Below, one piece after another: positions 1 through 6,407 of a stretch of 64,000 nucleotides of DNA. The notes under the pieces were generated by a model, which had not been told where the DNA came from, did no database searches, and worked only from the letters and a program-made list of their open reading frames with translations. Numbering within the stretch: the stretch's first letter is position 1; each line of letters opens with the position of its first letter. The stretch is from Flavobacteriales bacterium (lineage in GTDB: Bacteria > Bacteroidota > Bacteroidia > Flavobacteriales_F > PHOS-HE28), in assembly GCA_023957375.1 (NCBI GenBank), contig JAMLHB010000002.1:186001-250000 (forward strand). The letters run 5' to 3'. The position numbers were made by a program, and so were the translations under genes.

Positions 1-1635
1 GCCCTTGGCGGATGACCGCCGTTGAAGGTCGCCATTGTCCAAGCTGTTGAACAATTGCCCGCGCAGCGCGGGCTCCAGCCCTACGGACCACGCCGCATTG
101 AAGCGGTACCGCACATACGCCCGGGCCGTGTAGCCGAACACCACCTCGCGGAAGGCCACGTCGTTGAACGGCGTATAGCCGTCGCCGGCGCTGTTGGGCA
201 CCGCTCCGCGCCGCGCGCTCAGCAGCCCGATGGTGGGTCCTCCGCGCAGGCCGATGCTCCAGCGCCCCTGCACGATGTGGACATCGGCGAGCAATGGCAC
301 TTCCACATAGCTCACCCGGTTCACCGCGTCGCGGGCATCGCGAATGTGTTGGTGGTGAAGCACGGTGTCCGTGCCCTGTGCAAGCACATAGATCGTGGTG
401 TCCATCGATTGCCCCGTGTACGTGGGCGGCGTGCCCGCAAGGGTGTCCGTGATCACCAGCACGGCGGTATCAATTCCCGCCAAGTACCAGTACTGCTGAT
501 GGGTGGTCGATGTTGCATCCAAAGCATCCAACCGCAAGCGCTCCGCATATGTGCCGTAGTGCAGCCCGAAGCCCAGGCTGACGTTTCGGCCCGCATGCAT
601 CAACTCCGCGCCGAAACCAGCGCTGGAGGCCTTGCCCAGCGCGGCCGACCATTCATCACTGTTCCTCCCGGAGTACCTGGTGGTGGAGGTGAACACCCCG
701 CCCAAGGCGGTAATCTCCCACGGCGCGCGTTCAGGTACGATGGGGGGCGCAGTTGGTGCAGGGGAAGTGGCCAGCGCTGAATCTGCGGGAGCCGACGGAA
801 GCACGGAAGCAGTGGGGGCTGCCGCAACAGTGTCCTTCCACGCAGCTGCGGCAGGTGATCCGGTGGTGCTTGGACCACCTGCGGGATCTTGCGCCACCAC
901 CAGCCCTTGTTCCATGGCGCCGGGATCGGGGGCTGTGGAAGGCACTTCCGTTGTCGATCCCGTGACGGATGCCAGCTCCGGTTGGAAGGCAGGTGCAGGG
1001 TCCACACTTGAAGTTCCTGCAACTGCTTGCGGCAACGACGCAGCCGTCGCCTCCTCCTCCTGCCTGGCCGTTTCACCGATCGTGCCCAGCGATGCATGCC
1101 GCACCAGGCTGTCCATGCTCTTCATGGTTGCCCGCTGCGTTTCCTCCGGAGAGGCCAAGGGTATTGCTGGTGCATTTGCTGCTTTCAGCGCATGCAGGGC
1201 CTGCACGTTGTGATCCCCGTTCCGGTGCGGAAGAGTTGCCGTTCTGCTTTCCGTTGGCTTGGGCAACACGGTGGTTGCCACATGATTTTCTTCCGGCACT
1301 TCGGCCGCTGTGAAAGATTCCTCCTGGACACCCGGTCTGGGATCATCGCTTCCCACCGCTTGTTGCGTCGCATGTTCCACTTGCCGCACGGGCGCTTCCA
1401 CCGGTAAGGCAACCCCGGCACGCGAAGGTGCCTTGTCCGATCCCTGGCCGGGCAGCAGCATCCAGGCCAACAGCAAGAGCAGTCCGGCTCCCCCGGCCCA
1501 CCAGCCCCACCGCCTGGAACCGCGCCGGGCATCCAGTAGCGCACGGGCCTGCTGCCAGTCCGCATCGCTGTATTCCATGCGGCGATCCTGCAACTTGCGC
1601 CGGGCCAGTTCGTCAAATTCCTCGTTTGTGCTCAT
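1..1635 (-). CDS. Membrane-anchored protein with outer-membrane beta-barrel-like C-terminus, partner of ECF sigma factor (partial)
   Basis: The reading frame is open from an ATG at 1635 to the left edge (545 codons visible, no stop), so the 3' end lies outside the window. Residues 1-42 are charged and predicted cytoplasmic. Residues 43-62 form a hydrophobic membrane span containing WGWWAGGAGLLLLLAWML. Residues 70-300 are a low-complexity Ala/Pro/Ser/Thr/Glu linker. From about residue 304 (WEITALGGVFTSTTRYSG) the sequence has alternating aromatic beta strands with glycine-rich turns, like Bacteroidota outer-membrane beta-barrel (porin family) domains. The start ATG overlaps the stop of the upstream sigma factor as ATGA, which implies translational coupling. 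Sigma factor plus membrane-spanning partner is a familiar Bacteroidota arrangement, so an anti-sigma or signal-transduction role is inferred. No zinc-binding anti-sigma motif is visible. Confidence 0.7.
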   Translation of the reverse strand, partial: MSTNEEFDELARRKLQDRRMEYSDADWQQARALLDARRGSRRWGWWAGGAGLLLLLAWMLLPGQGSDKAPSRAGVALPVEAPVRQVEHATQQAVGSDDPRPGVQEESFTAAEVPEENHVATTVLPKPTESRTATLPHRNGDHNVQALHALKAANAPAIPLASPEETQRATMKSMDSLVRHASLGTIGETARQEEEATAASLPQAVAGTSSVDPAPAFQPELASVTGSTTEVPSTAPDPGAMEQGLVVAQDPAGGPSTTGSPAAAAWKDTVAAAPTASVLPSAPADSALATSPAPTAPPIVPERAPWEITALGGVFTSTTRYSGRNSDEWSAALGKASSAGFGAELMHAGRNVSLGFGLHYGTYAERLRLDALDATSTTHQQYWYLAGIDTAVLVITDTLAGTPPTYTGQSMDTTIYVLAQGTDTVLHHQHIRDARDAVNRVSYVEVPLLADVHIVQGRWSIGLRGGPTIGLLSARRGAVPNSAGDGYTPFNDVAFREVVFGYTARAYVRYRFNAAWSVGLEPALRGQLFNSLDNGDLQRRSSAKG

Positions 1636-2198
1636 GGCAATGCGGTTTTTACAGTAGCCTGAGTGCCCGCCATGCGGGCGATGGCCTGTTGCAACAATTG
1701 GCGGGCATGCGCCACGTGCCACTTGGAGGTGCCTGCACTGATGCCCAGCAGCTCGCCGATCTCCCCATGTTGGTACCCGTCGATCACGAACAGGTTGAAC
1801 ACCTTGCGGGAAGTTTCCGGCACGTGCTGCAACAGTTCCGCGAAGGCTTCCGCCTCCATCGTACGCAGGTAGTCGTTCACTACGCTGCCTGCAGATAGCT
1901 CCATCGGCGCATCCATGGTTTCGTGTGTTTTGCGGTCACGCTCCTTGCGGTAGTGGTCGATCACGGTGTTGATCATGATCCGCCGCACCCAGGCTTCGAA
2001 GGGCACCTCCCGCCGGCGTTTGCCCAAGTTCAGCAGCACTTTCAGGAATCCCTCGTTCATGCGTGCCGACGCATCCTGCCGGTTGTGCTCATAGCGCGAG
2101 CAGATCGACATCATCAGCGGGTACAGGGCCTTGTACAGTTCATGTTCCGCCCGCGGGTCCCTGCGGATGCAATCGGCGATCAGGCGTTCAGGGACCAT
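1632..2198 (-). CDS. ECF-type RNA polymerase sigma-70 factor
   Basis: This 188-residue protein fits the extracytoplasmic-function sigma family. It has a region 2 segment (ELYKALYPLMMSICSRY, then FEAWVRRIMINTVIDHYRK) followed by a region 4 helix-turn-helix (VFNLFVIDGYQHGEIGELL, GTSKWHVAHARQLL). I take the ATG at 2198. The in-frame GTG at 2225 lies inside a perfect hairpin that probably terminates the upstream gene. The stop overlaps the start of the next gene as ATGA, so the two are translated together. Such factors usually respond to envelope signals through a cognate membrane partner, here the adjacent barrel-tailed protein. The target promoters are unknown. Confidence 0.9.
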   Translation of the reverse strand: MVPERLIADCIRRDPRAEHELYKALYPLMMSICSRYEHNRQDASARMNEGFLKVLLNLGKRRREVPFEAWVRRIMINTVIDHYRKERDRKTHETMDAPMELSAGSVVNDYLRTMEAEAFAELLQHVPETSRKVFNLFVIDGYQHGEIGELLGISAGTSKWHVAHARQLLQQAIARMAGTQATVKTALP

Positions 2199-2211: not shown

Positions 2212-2245
2212 GGAAAGGTGCCCACCGGTTCGCGGGCACCTTTCC
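2212..2245 (-). terminator. Perfect 12-bp hairpin between T9SS gene and sigma factor
   Basis: GGAAAGGTGCCC at 2212-2223 is exactly complementary to GGGCACCTTTCC at 2234-2245, with a 10-base loop. It lies 18 bases past the stop of the upstream minus-strand T9SS gene and just before the sigma factor ATG. There is no clear T-tract, so termination is inferred from position and stem strength. It could also be an attenuator for the sigma gene. Confidence 0.55.
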
Positions 2246-2262: not shown

Positions 2263-4623
2263 CTACCTGACCTTCAGGAAGCGTTGGATTGCGCTCGTAG
2301 TTCCGTTGCCGATCCGCACCAAGTAGAGCCCTTCGTCCAGGCGGCCGATGGGTAGTTGCAGCTGCTGGTCGCCGCTGTTGAGGCGGTGGTTGGCTCGGAG
2401 GATCACCCGGCCATCGGCGGCAATGATCTCCACGGGCACGAGCCCGCCGAAGTTGCTGGTCACCGCGATGTTCAGCAGTTCATCCGCCGGGTTGGGCCAT
2501 AGGCGCAGTCCGCTCACCGCCGGGGCCTCGGGGATGCTGGTGGGTGTGCCTTGGACCACGTTGAGGGTGAAACCGCCGGAGCGGTCGTCCAACGGGACCG
2601 GGTGCCCGCCGCCCATGGGCGCCATGCCGTTCAAGATGCCGTTCTCATCCACGCTCACAGTGTCGCAGTAGCTGTCGGTGCAGCCGCCGTTCATCGGGTC
2701 GCCGGAAGTCATGGTGAGGCAAAGCAGCCAAGGGCCGGGGCCGTCATAGGTATGGCTGGGGAAGGCTTCGGTGGAGCTGGTGCCGTCTCCGAAATCCCAG
2801 AAGAACTGGTAGGTGCCGTTGCCACCGCTGCTCAGGTTCCACACCCACACTTGATTGGGGATGGGCGTGATGCCGCCTGAAGTGCTGTCGTAAGCTTGAA
2901 TGGCCCAGAAGCTGGCTTCGCAAGGTGTGTTCACCGGAGGATTGATGTTCCCATTGGCATCCACCACCACGCTGTCACAAGTCGAGCACGACCCATTGAG
3001 GGAATCGGTCACATTCAGGCAAACGGAGTACGAACCTGGCGCGGTGAACGTGTGCGATACGGATTCACCCGGTTGTGTTCCGGTGTCGGAGAAATTCCAG
3101 ATGTAGGTCTCTCCGCCGGCGCTGCCCGAGGTGCAGCTCGTGAAGGTAGCGGTGAACGGCGCAGCTTGCTCCATGGTGATGCAGGCGTTGCATCCCGTGG
3201 AACTCGAATCGGGAACACATACGCAATTGATGTTCCAGATGCCGGAAATTGCGGTGCCGGCAATGGTGCATGCCGTGCCGGGCAAGGCACTTCCTCCGGG
3301 AATGCCCATGCAGTCAACCATGCTGCCGCACACGCAGTCGGTCCCGATCACGTCATTCGCCGTCATCGGATCGCCGTCATCACAGGGGGAGCCTATGATT
3401 CCGTACGTGCCCGGGCAATTGTCGGCATTGTTGGACACATAGCCTACAGGTTGCGTGCAAGCGCTGATGGAGATCGCTGGATCACCATAGCCGTCGCCAT
3501 CGGCATCGCCGTACCACAATGGCGTGCCCAGGATATAAATCCCCGAACTGACATCCTGGCAGGGCGCAGTACCCACCACGGTGTACACGTAAAAGCCAGG
3601 TTGGTCCGTGTTCGGGTCGAAGGTGGTGCTGTGCGGGGCGCCCATGAAGGTCCACGTGCCGCCCACATCGGGCGTTCCGCCCAAAAGGGTGAAGAGGTTG
3701 GTGGGGCCCGCCAGGTCACACAGGGAATTGTTTGTCGTGGTGCCTGCATCCGGGCCGGTAAAGGCCGTAACGACCACCGATGAATCCGCAGCCCCGCACG
3801 CATTTGTCACGCTGACCTGGTAGGTCCCCGTAGTTGCCGTTCCGTAGGCATAACCATTCAAGCTATCGGAATAGATGATTCCGGGGCCGCTCCAGGAGTA
3901 CAGCAAAGGGGCTGTTCCCGTCGCGGTTGCCAGCACGAAGAGGCTGTCGTTTGTACAAAGCGTGAAAGGGGCGGTAATACTGGAAATACTTGGGGCCGTG
4001 CAGGGGTTGATGGTGCCGTCTGCGGCCACCACCACATCCTGGCAGGTGTGGCATAAGGTCCCAAGGACGTCCGTTGTGTTCAGGCAGACTACGTATGTTC
4101 CCGGAGCCGTGAACACGTGCGTTGCGGTGCCGCCCGTGACCAGGTCACCTTCGGGTAATTCCCACGTGAAACTATATGGGCCGGTGCCGCCGGAGGCATA
4201 GGCAGTGAGCAGCGCGGTGAAGGGCGCGGTCTGTTCCACGGTGAATGTGGACTGGCAGGAACCGCCGCAATTCAGGACAACATTGATCACGGTGGAGTCG
4301 GGAAAGAAGGAGTTCACAGTGTAGTGCAGCGTATCGGACAACATGGCCCCTTGGCAGGGCGTGCTTACCCGGAACCAGCCTGCCGTGCTGTCCATTTGCA
4401 TGGTGACTGAGAAGCCGCATGTGCCGGGATCCAAAGGCACATCGATGTTGAGCGAAGGCTCTGTACCGAACAGGGTGCCAATGTTGACGGAGCTCCCAGG
4501 CGTACACCCTGGCACGTACCCCGTGATGGTCACCGGGTAGGGAGGTGTTTGGCTGAAGGCCGTGAGCGCCAACAGCGTAGCGCCGGCCATGGCTATGGAT
4601 CGAAACGGACTTTGCATGGTCAT
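2263..4623 (-). CDS. Secreted PKD-repeat protein with T9SS type A sorting domain
   Basis: This 786-residue protein starts at an ATG at 4623, which gives a clean signal peptide (SIAMAGATLLALTAFSQ). Three PKD-like modules lie near residues 121-205, 480-535 and 565-640, with HVFTAPGTYVVCLN, HTFTAPGSYSVCLN and FWDFGDGTSSTEAF signatures. Near residue 370 the motif DADGDGYGDP resembles MopE/thrombospondin-type calcium-binding repeats. The C-terminus (about 705-786) has the T9SS type A pattern LRLWPNPADELLNIAV ... GLYLVRIGNG ... QRFLKVR. Export through the outer membrane by T9SS and cell-surface attachment are inferred from that domain. The gene is followed at close range by a paralog with the same ending, so the pair probably arose by tandem duplication. 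Substrate and role are unknown. Confidence 0.85.
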   Translation of the reverse strand: MTMQSPFRSIAMAGATLLALTAFSQTPPYPVTITGYVPGCTPGSSVNIGTLFGTEPSLNIDVPLDPGTCGFSVTMQMDSTAGWFRVSTPCQGAMLSDTLHYTVNSFFPDSTVINVVLNCGGSCQSTFTVEQTAPFTALLTAYASGGTGPYSFTWELPEGDLVTGGTATHVFTAPGTYVVCLNTTDVLGTLCHTCQDVVVAADGTINPCTAPSISSITAPFTLCTNDSLFVLATATGTAPLLYSWSGPGIIYSDSLNGYAYGTATTGTYQVSVTNACGAADSSVVVTAFTGPDAGTTTNNSLCDLAGPTNLFTLLGGTPDVGGTWTFMGAPHSTTFDPNTDQPGFYVYTVVGTAPCQDVSSGIYILGTPLWYGDADGDGYGDPAISISACTQPVGYVSNNADNCPGTYGIIGSPCDDGDPMTANDVIGTDCVCGSMVDCMGIPGGSALPGTACTIAGTAISGIWNINCVCVPDSSSTGCNACITMEQAAPFTATFTSCTSGSAGGETYIWNFSDTGTQPGESVSHTFTAPGSYSVCLNVTDSLNGSCSTCDSVVVDANGNINPPVNTPCEASFWAIQAYDSTSGGITPIPNQVWVWNLSSGGNGTYQFFWDFGDGTSSTEAFPSHTYDGPGPWLLCLTMTSGDPMNGGCTDSYCDTVSVDENGILNGMAPMGGGHPVPLDDRSGGFTLNVVQGTPTSIPEAPAVSGLRLWPNPADELLNIAVTSNFGGLVPVEIIAADGRVILRANHRLNSGDQQLQLPIGRLDEGLYLVRIGNGTTSAIQRFLKVR

Positions 4624-4719
4624 GGGTTTTCGTGGTGTACCTCCATACACGGCGTTCCGGGTGCAAGGGTTGGGTGCTGCCGTAATTTTTCTCTTCCAGG
4701 AGACGCACCCTGAACGGCA

Positions 4720-4753
4720 AACGGGTGCCCGCGCAACTGCGCAAGCACCCGTT
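4720..4753 (-). terminator. Hairpin between the two tandem T9SS genes
   Basis: AACGGGTGC (4720-4728) pairs with GCACCCGTT (4745-4753), and there is a second inner GCGCA/TGCGC pairing. The hairpin sits just after the stop of the gene starting at 6051 and before the gene starting at 4623. No T-run follows, so intrinsic termination is only probable. Confidence 0.45.
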
Positions 4754-4773
4754 ACCACCAAACGCACAACGAA

Positions 4774-6051
4774 CTATTGCAGTTTCACAAAACGGTGCGT
4801 GACAACGGAATTTCTGGAGCCGATGCGCAGCAGGTAGAGGCCCGGTGCCAAGTTGCCCGTGGCCAAGTGCAACATATTGGCGCCAACCGCCACCGGGAAT
4901 TCGCGCTGCAACACCACGCGGCCCGCATGGTCCATCACGGCAGCAGGCACTGTGCCGCCGCGCAGGCCGGAGAAGCTGATGTGCAGCTCGTCCTGCACCG
5001 GGTTGGGCCACAGGCGGAAGTTGCTGAAGGCCGGAATTTCCGGCATGCCCGTGGGAACGGATTGGATCACGTTGATCGTGAATCCGCCTTCGCGGAGGTT
5101 GGCACTGGCGCCATGATCGTGCAGGATCATGCCGTTCAAGTAGCCGTTGGCGTCCACGCTCACCGTGTCGCAGAAGCTGCTGGTGCAGTTGCCGCTGGTG
5201 ATGGTGAGGCACAGCAGCCAGGGGCCAGGCCCGTTGTAGGTGTGGCTGGGATAGGCCTCCGCGGAGGTGCCGCCATCACCGAAATCCCAGGCGAATTGCA
5301 CGCTTTCATCATTCGGGGTACTGAGGTTCACGGCCCACACCACGTTGGGGATCGGGGCCACCATGCCGCCGCCGTTGGAGGTGTCCTCGTAGGCCTGCAC
5401 CGTCCAGAAACCGGCCTGGCATGCTGCCGTATTGTTGGTGCTTACGGTGCCGTCAGCGGCCACAAACACCGTGTCGCAGGCCACGCTGCTGCATCCCGTG
5501 GCATCGGAGATCTGTATGCAGATGCCGTAAATGCCCGGCTGGGTGAAGGTGAAGGACGGAGCATTCTCCATCACCAGGGCGCCGTTCGGCATGAGCCAAA
5601 TGCAGGAGTAGGGCGGTGTTCCACCGCTGCTGCAACTGCTGAACAAGGCGGTAAAGGGCTGCCCCTGTACCATGCCGATGCATGCTTGGCAGGCATCGGC
5701 ACTGCCGCAGGCCAGGTCCAGCACCACAGTCTGGGTGCCGGTGGCGGCGCTGCCAAAATCATAAACCGCGGAATCACCGGTGATGGTGCCGTTGGTGCAG
5801 CTGGCAAAGGCGAACACATCACCGCTCGCACTGCCTAATGCCAAGCTGGCCGTGAACCCGCAGGTGTCATTCACCGGAACGCTCACCGATTGCGCAGGCA
5901 AAGTGCCTGGTCCTGTTTGCACGGTGACCATGGCGCCCGGGGTGCAGTCGGCCACCGCGCCATGGACCACTACGGTGTATGGCTGTTGGCCGAAGGTGGC
6001 GGCGGAAAACAGGGCGAAGCAAGCGCCGAGAAAGGGGGATCGTGCCTTCAT
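4774..6051 (-). CDS. Secreted PKD-repeat protein with T9SS type A sorting domain (paralog of downstream gene)
   Basis: This is a 425-residue protein. The ATG at 6051 is chosen because it opens a signal peptide (FLGACFALFSAATFGQQ). Two PKD-like modules follow (about 117-207 and 207-307, the latter with FAWDFGDGGTSAEAY and HTYNGPGPWLLCLTITSG). The T9SS type A tail is at 344-425 (NFRLWPNPVQDELHISF, GLYLLRIGSRN, HRFVKLQ). The last 200 residues closely parallel the neighbour at 2263-4623, including CDTVSVDANGYLNGM and the Gly-rich linker before the tail. The longer neighbour differs mainly by extra middle modules. Predicted surface or extracellular protein of unknown binding specificity. Confidence 0.83.
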   Translation of the reverse strand: MKARSPFLGACFALFSAATFGQQPYTVVVHGAVADCTPGAMVTVQTGPGTLPAQSVSVPVNDTCGFTASLALGSASGDVFAFASCTNGTITGDSAVYDFGSAATGTQTVVLDLACGSADACQACIGMVQGQPFTALFSSCSSGGTPPYSCIWLMPNGALVMENAPSFTFTQPGIYGICIQISDATGCSSVACDTVFVAADGTVSTNNTAACQAGFWTVQAYEDTSNGGGMVAPIPNVVWAVNLSTPNDESVQFAWDFGDGGTSAEAYPSHTYNGPGPWLLCLTITSGNCTSSFCDTVSVDANGYLNGMILHDHGASANLREGGFTINVIQSVPTGMPEIPAFSNFRLWPNPVQDELHISFSGLRGGTVPAAVMDHAGRVVLQREFPVAVGANMLHLATGNLAPGLYLLRIGSRNSVVTHRFVKLQ

Positions 6052-6407
6052 GGGTTGTGAAGCTTTGGGGTTAGTGGTGCTTTTCAATGGGTTCAGTGGC
6101 ATTGACCACAAGTGCCGCGAACGTTCCACACCGGCCATCGAAGGTATTGCATCGCGCTCCCCACATGCATGGAAGTCCTGGGCAAATGCCTCGCGTTATA
6201 TACGTTTCCAGCCAACTGCATGCGCACGTTCGGAGTACTGGACATCCTGTGGTATGGGGATACACGCAGAAATCCTTCAAGGGTTGGGTGGCTGCACGGG
6301 CCATGGGCCTTCCGCGCACACCACACGTGCATCATCAATGGACGGGCCGCAGGCCCTCTACCGGCTGCACATTGCCGCCCCGCCATGGGGCGCGCTGGTT
6401 TGGCACG
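6052..6407. other. Intergenic region without a supportable gene
   Basis: These 356 bases separate the T9SS gene from the DUF1287 gene. Short open frames occur on both strands but none has a ribosome site, a recognisable motif or neighbour-like codon use. I see no strong hairpin or repeat. It could hold the promoter of the gene starting at 6051. Confidence 0.5.

Follow-up and report, generated by a model that had tools for sequence, protein, structure and literature searches.

Can a single protein chain carry a signal from the bacterial cell surface, through both membranes, to a sigma factor in the cytoplasm? The question is raised by a locus in a Flavobacteriales bacterium with a genome of 3.83 Mb. 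It lies at the start of the window, the whole stretch of 64,000 nucleotides that was analysed (C2:186001-250000). An earlier note on this DNA had described an ECF sigma gene overlapping the gene for a protein that would bridge the inner membrane and an outer-membrane barrel. The features of the two genes are as follows.

1632..2198, minus strand: ECF sigma factor gene, 188 amino acids (Pfam regions 2 and 4, TIGR02937 above cut-off)
1..1635, minus strand: putative dual-membrane anti-sigma gene P0001 (545 of 555 codons in the window; whole gene at L004:3968-5635, minus strand; ATGA overlap)
1510..1635, minus strand: residues 1-42 of P0001, two short helices, predicted to be cytoplasmic and proposed as the sigma-binding part (conservation, alignment A4, orthologue model)
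1444..1509, minus strand: residues 43-64, single predicted transmembrane helix with the N-terminus inside (hydropathy, positive-inside count, orthologue model)
730..1443, minus strand: residues 65-302, predicted disordered, A/P/T/S-rich periplasmic tether (length drift, composition, low pLDDT)
1..729, minus strand: residues 303-545 of the predicted barrel domain, which spans 303-555 (10 predicted strands, membrane-barrel matches, alternating hydrophobicity)

The upstream gene encodes an ECF family sigma factor, as regions 2 and 4 both exceed their Pfam cut-offs: Sigma70_r2 (PF04542) at 46.4 bits (cut-off 24, E 3.6e-12) and Sigma70_r4_2 (PF08281) at 41.5 bits (cut-off 25.7, E 1e-10). Only general ECF models of Pfam and NCBIfam exceeded their cut-offs, and TIGR02985, a Bacteroidetes subfamily, was dropped at 59 bits against a cut-off of 126. 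A DNA search with positions 1-2198 against the same genome returned, besides the stretch itself, only two short sigma-like matches. The sigma stop and the partner start share the sequence ATGA, as the earlier note had stated, and this overlap of 4 bases recurs in all 28 assessable sequences, the present one and 27 orthologues. That count leaves aside L041, in which the frame is split, and L050, a paralogue-type locus with an overlap of 26. The sigma gene is directly upstream of the partner gene in 30 of 30 same-genus loci, the present one included.

The last 10 codons and the stop of P0001 fall outside the window and were taken from the same contig (L004). This supplied the 3′ end that had been missing, and the full protein has 555 amino acids, ending in IQLSLTYRLR. 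In an alignment of 28 sequences, comprising P0001 and 27 same-genus relatives down to 32% identity (L041 and L050 omitted), the N-terminal head is 43-44 residues long, with residues 1-40 at 2.88 bits per column, and the barrel region has 252-255 residues at 2.79 bits. The stretch between head/span and barrel (65-300) varies from 193 to 297 residues and averages 1.29 bits. Since the two ends are constrained in length and the middle is variable, they appear to be joined by a tether of drifting length. In P0001 this tether is about 240 residues long, poorly conserved and rich in A, P, T and S, close to the low-complexity linker of some 230 residues first described.

The near-invariant residues of the head are F7, D8, R12, K14, R18 and W27. 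It has no match in Pfam or NCBIfam, and a search of PDB sequences with the head profile yielded no convincing solved relative. The PDB sequence matches of the head and barrel profiles, which were to designed TIM barrels, a sulfotransferase, spectrin, a viral peptide and an antibody, were judged spurious. After the head comes one hydrophobic stretch, at 44-61, whose inner flank is positively charged. In the 12 residues flanking the span, lysine plus arginine average 4.9 before it and 1.2 after it; the excess is on the N-terminal side in 27 of 28 same-genus sequences (1 equal) and in 61 of 65 members from outside the genus (2 equal, 2 lower). Because of this excess the N-terminus should face the cytoplasm. 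Hydropathy, the positive-inside count and a modelled helix at 43-64 all agree with the cytoplasmic N-terminus and single span proposed at the outset.

Structural models were built on two orthologues, L053 at full length (4 sequences) and L051 for the barrel domain. A scan for close relatives yielded 3 loci, which allowed modelling alignments of 3 or 4 sequences. The L053 model has helices at 3-17 and 24-38, a membrane helix at 43-64, disorder over 61-300 with pLDDT of about 21-34 across most of it, and ten long strands within 305-554; mean pLDDT is 44 and pTM 0.34, with block confidence up to 87. The L051 model also has ten long strands (mean pLDDT 52, pTM 0.51). All 50 Foldseek matches listed for the latter are outer-membrane proteins, at TM-scores of 0.46 or less by query length. 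With a second structural aligner, the best row for the full-length model was a porin of a Legionella machine (Z 18.3), and NspA aligned at Z 18.1 across residues ~300-555 (rmsd 2.5, 154 residues aligned). The best OmpA rows reached Z 16-18 and the NMR entries Z 13-14. What is shared with OmpA and NspA is the barrel fold, and at 4-14% sequence identity in those rows the likeness is one of fold only. The NspA- and OmpA-type proteins that match best are eight-stranded barrels, against ten strands in the model; OpcA and Pla, with ten strands each, match it at only about Z 10. The span and the ten strands are predicted, with the strand number and the closure of the barrel still provisional.

Were the C-terminal domain a soluble periplasmic beta-barrel or sandwich, P0001 would be an anti-sigma factor of the ordinary inner-membrane type, its long stalk carrying a sensor in the periplasm. 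Soluble PsbO barrels do match the model, at Z about 10-11, the same range as the membrane barrels OmpX, Ail and OpcA, and overall model confidence is low. P0001 also scores below the Pfam outer-membrane barrel cut-off (OMP_b-brl_2, PF13568, cut-off 27), at 15.6 bits, as does L051 at 13.4, and it was therefore not assigned to this family by sequence. Pfam gave P0001 one other row, a viral turret domain at E 0.11, which was regarded as a chance match. Against a soluble domain, the orthologue L053 passes the same cut-off at 31.0 bits, and members elsewhere (L059, L083, L097 and L115) also exceed it. The top structural rows are membrane barrels at Z about 16-18, above PsbO, and the matches listed by Foldseek for the barrel domain point the same way. 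The hydrophobic/polar alternation in the strands is higher than in all of 2000 shuffles, and most orthologues end in a terminal strand such as LSLTYRLR. A soluble domain is accordingly quite improbable; it was one of the two outcomes that the earlier note had named as fatal to its proposal, and it did not appear. The barrel-like C-terminus is borne out by models of low confidence whose best structural matches are membrane barrels, and these models give good grounds for regarding the domain as an outer-membrane barrel.

Sequence and models thus give the pairing of sigma and partner, the four parts of the chain, its orientation and its barrel fold. On the best reading, P0001 is a single chain that begins in the cytoplasm with a region for sigma binding and ends in an outer-membrane barrel, and the four-part anatomy and the membrane-barrel matches support the central proposal that one chain links the cytoplasm to an outer-membrane-type domain. 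The earlier note had thought such a signal path unusual, and here it has been overtaken by a published precedent, the Dma family (PMC13088901). As described there, the Dma proteins of Bacteroides thetaiotaomicron start with an anti-sigma domain, cross the membrane by a helix and continue through a long disordered tether into a C-terminal barrel; their genes adjoin an ECF21 sigma gene (PMC13088901). Deletion of dma2 raises vesicle production, an effect that requires das2 (PMC13088901). The present locus, also from the Bacteroidota, shares the head (here a putative sigma-binding one), the single membrane helix, the disordered tether, the barrel and the adjoining ECF sigma gene. Since the anatomy is equal part by part it was filed as Dma-like, a likeness judged by the published description of Dma. 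We put the probability that the locus is a sigma/anti-sigma pair of this dual membrane-spanning kind at roughly 0.8. There are also differences from Dma: the named relatives of the present locus are Flavobacteriales/Bacteroidota metagenome genomes, a type IX cargo gene stands next to it in place of BT_1557, and no vesicle phenotype is known for it.

How such a pair would work, from the binding of the sigma factor and the placement of the barrel in the outer membrane to the signal and the target genes, we infer as follows. The two-helix cytoplasmic head would hold the ECF sigma factor inactive, while the single helix would anchor the partner in the inner membrane with its N-terminus inside. The flexible tether of about 240 residues would cross the periplasm, and the C-terminal barrel would sit in the outer membrane. 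The trigger could be a docked ligand or surface protein, failed insertion into the outer membrane, or strain or cutting of the tether. A change in barrel or tether would then free the sigma factor, which would turn on its genes.

In the FecA-FecR-FecI system a surface event controls an ECF sigma factor through an inner-membrane protein, with a separate receptor, and FecR is a positive co-factor for FecI. There the receptor and the inner-membrane protein are separate, whereas here both membrane parts appear to belong to one chain. An ordinary FecR-type unit was dropped from consideration, as no FecR row appeared in Pfam at E up to 1; a scan of the neighbouring proteins found no TonB-dependent receptor. 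The gene order is the same as in the FecI/FecR arrangement, and the sign of control cannot be read from sequence, so that the partner might be a positive co-factor required for sigma activity and not a simple inhibitor. The closest described relatives argue the other way: they inhibit, and loss of dma1 or dma2 raises vesiculation via das1 or das2 (PMC13088901). A positive role is therefore unlikely.

Two further systems bear comparison. In Dma3, as here, a sigma factor and an outer-membrane-spanning part act as a unit, but the sigma domain lies within the chain, while here it is encoded by a separate, overlapping gene (PMC13088901). In the PorA-PorXY-SigP system of Porphyromonas gingivalis, a surface protein with a type IX CTD influences an ECF sigma factor (PMC7712824). 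Of the links found between an ECF sigma factor and type IX cargo, it is the nearest one described; it works via a two-component system, and the passages on it describe no dual-membrane chain (PMC7712824). The present locus thus adds a member to a known, little-studied form of surface-to-gene signalling, and the path is no longer unprecedented.

Profile A4, which covers head and span, was used to follow the head beyond the genus; it includes the head rows of P0003, P0005 and L050, whose matches are by construction. At E 0.001 it matches 129 of the 198 Bacteroidia genomes sampled. A phylum sample gave 31 matches in 118 genomes, divided between 26 of approximately 29 Bacteroidia and 5 of approximately 89 from other classes; two of these five have strong scores and a sigma gene upstream. 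The sigma gene was directly upstream in 70 of 70 A4 loci examined, 65 of them outside the genus. The 70 are a non-random set, 30 being those that the search gave and 40 chosen from the non-genus matches next in the list, with some near-copies from one genus. A further set of 25 loci, from which L126-L128 were removed as repeats of earlier places, gave 22 further places with mostly weaker matches. A clear sigma gene was present in 18 of these 22 and a weak one in L164; L163 and L172 had none, and L165 was not relocated. L172 encodes a protein with a head-like N-terminus, and the 6 kb examined there showed no sigma gene. The strict pairing at 65 of 65 non-genus loci examined supports binding of the sigma factor by the N-terminal head, and the simplest reading of the sequences is that the head is the sigma-binding part.

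The same head appears with other outer ends. Three further sigma/partner pairs are present in the same genome, with partners P0003, P0004 and P0005. P0003 has a barrel-like end, only weak similarity to P0001 (E 1.27) and no Pfam match; its relative in genome G028 matches residues 416-554 of P0001 (E 1.8e-7). P0004 ends in CHU_C, and P0005 in two PKD domains followed by CHU_C. The CHU_C of P0005 barely reaches the Pfam cut-off, and both P0004 and P0005 fall under the cut-off for NCBIfam type B. A4 matches P0004-type relatives in G015 (2.8e-8) and G007 (4.0e-6) but, at E 0.001, missed P0004 itself, whose head was recognised by eye. Within the genus, the sigma gene is upstream in 12 of 12 P0005-type loci examined and in 11 of 12 P0004-type loci by script, and the twelfth, that of the present genome (L141), which the script missed through a start artefact, has one on inspection.

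Among the 65 members from outside the genus, domain counts at E 0.001, which is not the Pfam cut-off, were 26 for OMP_b-brl_2, 11 for OMP_b-brl (overlap between the two not separated), 3 for PKD_4 and 3 for CHU_C. Three members, L112, L119 and L123, combine PKD with CHU_C; in L119 the CHU_C is under the Pfam cut-off. L121 (1175-3016) ends in a PorP/SprF type IX barrel. In the sigma partners L121:1175-3016 and L101:2003-3025 several head motifs appear to precede the span, which is located near residue 149. In the sigma partner L107:71-2725, CarboxypepD-like, TonB Plug and VWA/YfbK domains stand behind the same head. L018:1706-2785, also a sigma partner, has two head motifs recognised by eye at its N-terminus, and CHU_C, a type IX type B domain, is its only Pfam match. 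Seven of the 65 (L086, L102, L111, L113, L118, L120 and L122) are short, with 221-293 residues and no Pfam match, and because they carry no recognised outer domain the head may sometimes occur without an outer-membrane end. Pfam also gave no match for L101, which contains masked letters, or for the longer L106 and L114. PorP/SprF, PKD plus CHU_C, or CHU_C ends on such heads were not found in the literature searched, the 2024 Dma1 paper in PNAS lying outside its scope.

These variants bear on a different view of the N-terminus, namely that the first 64 residues are a long, cleaved signal peptide and the product a free outer-membrane barrel whose gene is merely co-transcribed with the sigma gene. 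A charged N-region followed by one hydrophobic stretch does resemble a signal sequence, and the overlap makes co-transcription expected. A signal peptide would have no need of a head as conserved as the barrel, which is what the 28-sequence alignment gives for positions 1-40. Nor does this view fit the recurrence of similar heads on PKD plus CHU_C, CHU_C and VWA-type ends, with a sigma gene adjoining in the examined loci, or the W27 column, which is invariant in the alignment of the 65 divergent non-genus members. A cleaved signal peptide is on these grounds very improbable.

The spread of the head bears on a wider gap. In a coevolution study, only 6% of Bacteroidetes ECF sigma factors had a class I anti-sigma domain nearby, and the reasons suggested were broken gene order or other modes of control, such as other classes of anti-sigma factor (PMC7406223). 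The head profile, with its matches in 129 of 198 Bacteroidia and a sigma gene at 65 of 65 non-genus loci, is a candidate for filling part of that gap. The studied examples described so far in the literature consulted, Dma1, Dma2 and Dma3, are all from a single gut species (PMC13088901). A head of some 42 residues with an invariant tryptophan would provide a handle for asking what signal each sigma factor answers to.

A possible signal is suggested by the gene upstream of the sigma gene.

2263..4767, minus strand: PKD protein with a T9SS type A sorting domain, upstream neighbour (PKD_4 and Por_Secre_tail in Pfam, TIGR04183 above cut-off; start codon uncertain)

A second, tandem PKD gene with a T9SS type A sorting domain lies at 4774-6138 on the minus strand, and the C-terminal parts of the two products are alike by eye. 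The last 290 residues of the upstream PKD protein match a same-strand gene 61-107 bases before the sigma gene in 26 of 29 orthologue loci, the present one included. The three loci lacking this gene have at most 211 bases of room, and all 23 with at least 448 bases have it. In L050, which is of the P0003 type, the type IX match is downstream and not upstream, and the second barrel-type unit of the genome (L017) has a PKD protein downstream, its type A domain just above the NCBIfam cut-off.

Outside the genus the association was followed with a type IX profile built from the present genus. Sigma gene and partner were relocated in 58 of 60 non-genus loci (54 from the set of 70, 6 from the further places); the two that were not, L207 and L224, encode tandem-head proteins that fail the distance rule, and a sigma gene adjoins both. 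A type IX-type gene was directly upstream in 10 of the 58 loci and directly downstream in 1 (Fisher p 0.008, relatedness ignored). The ten fall in six families, four of them in one, and 21 of the 22 type IX-type genes in view at the non-genus loci are on the same strand. Downstream of P0001 is an inorganic pyrophosphatase gene, which is found in 10 of 30 loci, though there is more room on that side in most. Farther downstream, beyond the start of the window, L004:929-3061 (minus strand) encodes a protein that carries a GEVED domain and a type A sorting domain for type IX secretion.

The association is correlative and hints at a link to type IX cargo. Because cargo domains are part of the chain in some units and are encoded by an adjoining gene in others, a functional link is suggested; barrel units that follow directly on the gene of a type IX-secreted PKD protein were not found in the literature searched. 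It is conceivable, although we hold it as a tentative and rather doubtful extension, that Bacteroidia have a modular class of trans-envelope sensors in which one head and span carry varied outer ends, part of the class monitoring type IX secretion. In barrel units the PKD cargo encoded upstream would dock on the barrel from outside. Where PKD/CHU_C or PorP/SprF domains are in the chain, export itself would put tension on the tether and so free the sigma factor. The type IX neighbourhood supplies a first signal that can be tested, and together with the wider modular class it is the part of specialist interest that reaches beyond a single locus.

Between the PKD cargo gene and the sigma gene lies one more conserved element.

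2212..2245, minus strand: conserved hairpin ending 13 nucleotides before the sigma start (position, folds in relatives, paired changes)

The hairpin is strong, and no run of T follows it at the window locus. It is a candidate terminator, attenuator or leader element. Its arms covary: in 24 hand-trimmed sequences from the 29 upstream stretches, with L034, L035, L037 and L040 left out for their other shapes and L028 as a near-copy, 11 of the 12 pairs have changes on both sides.
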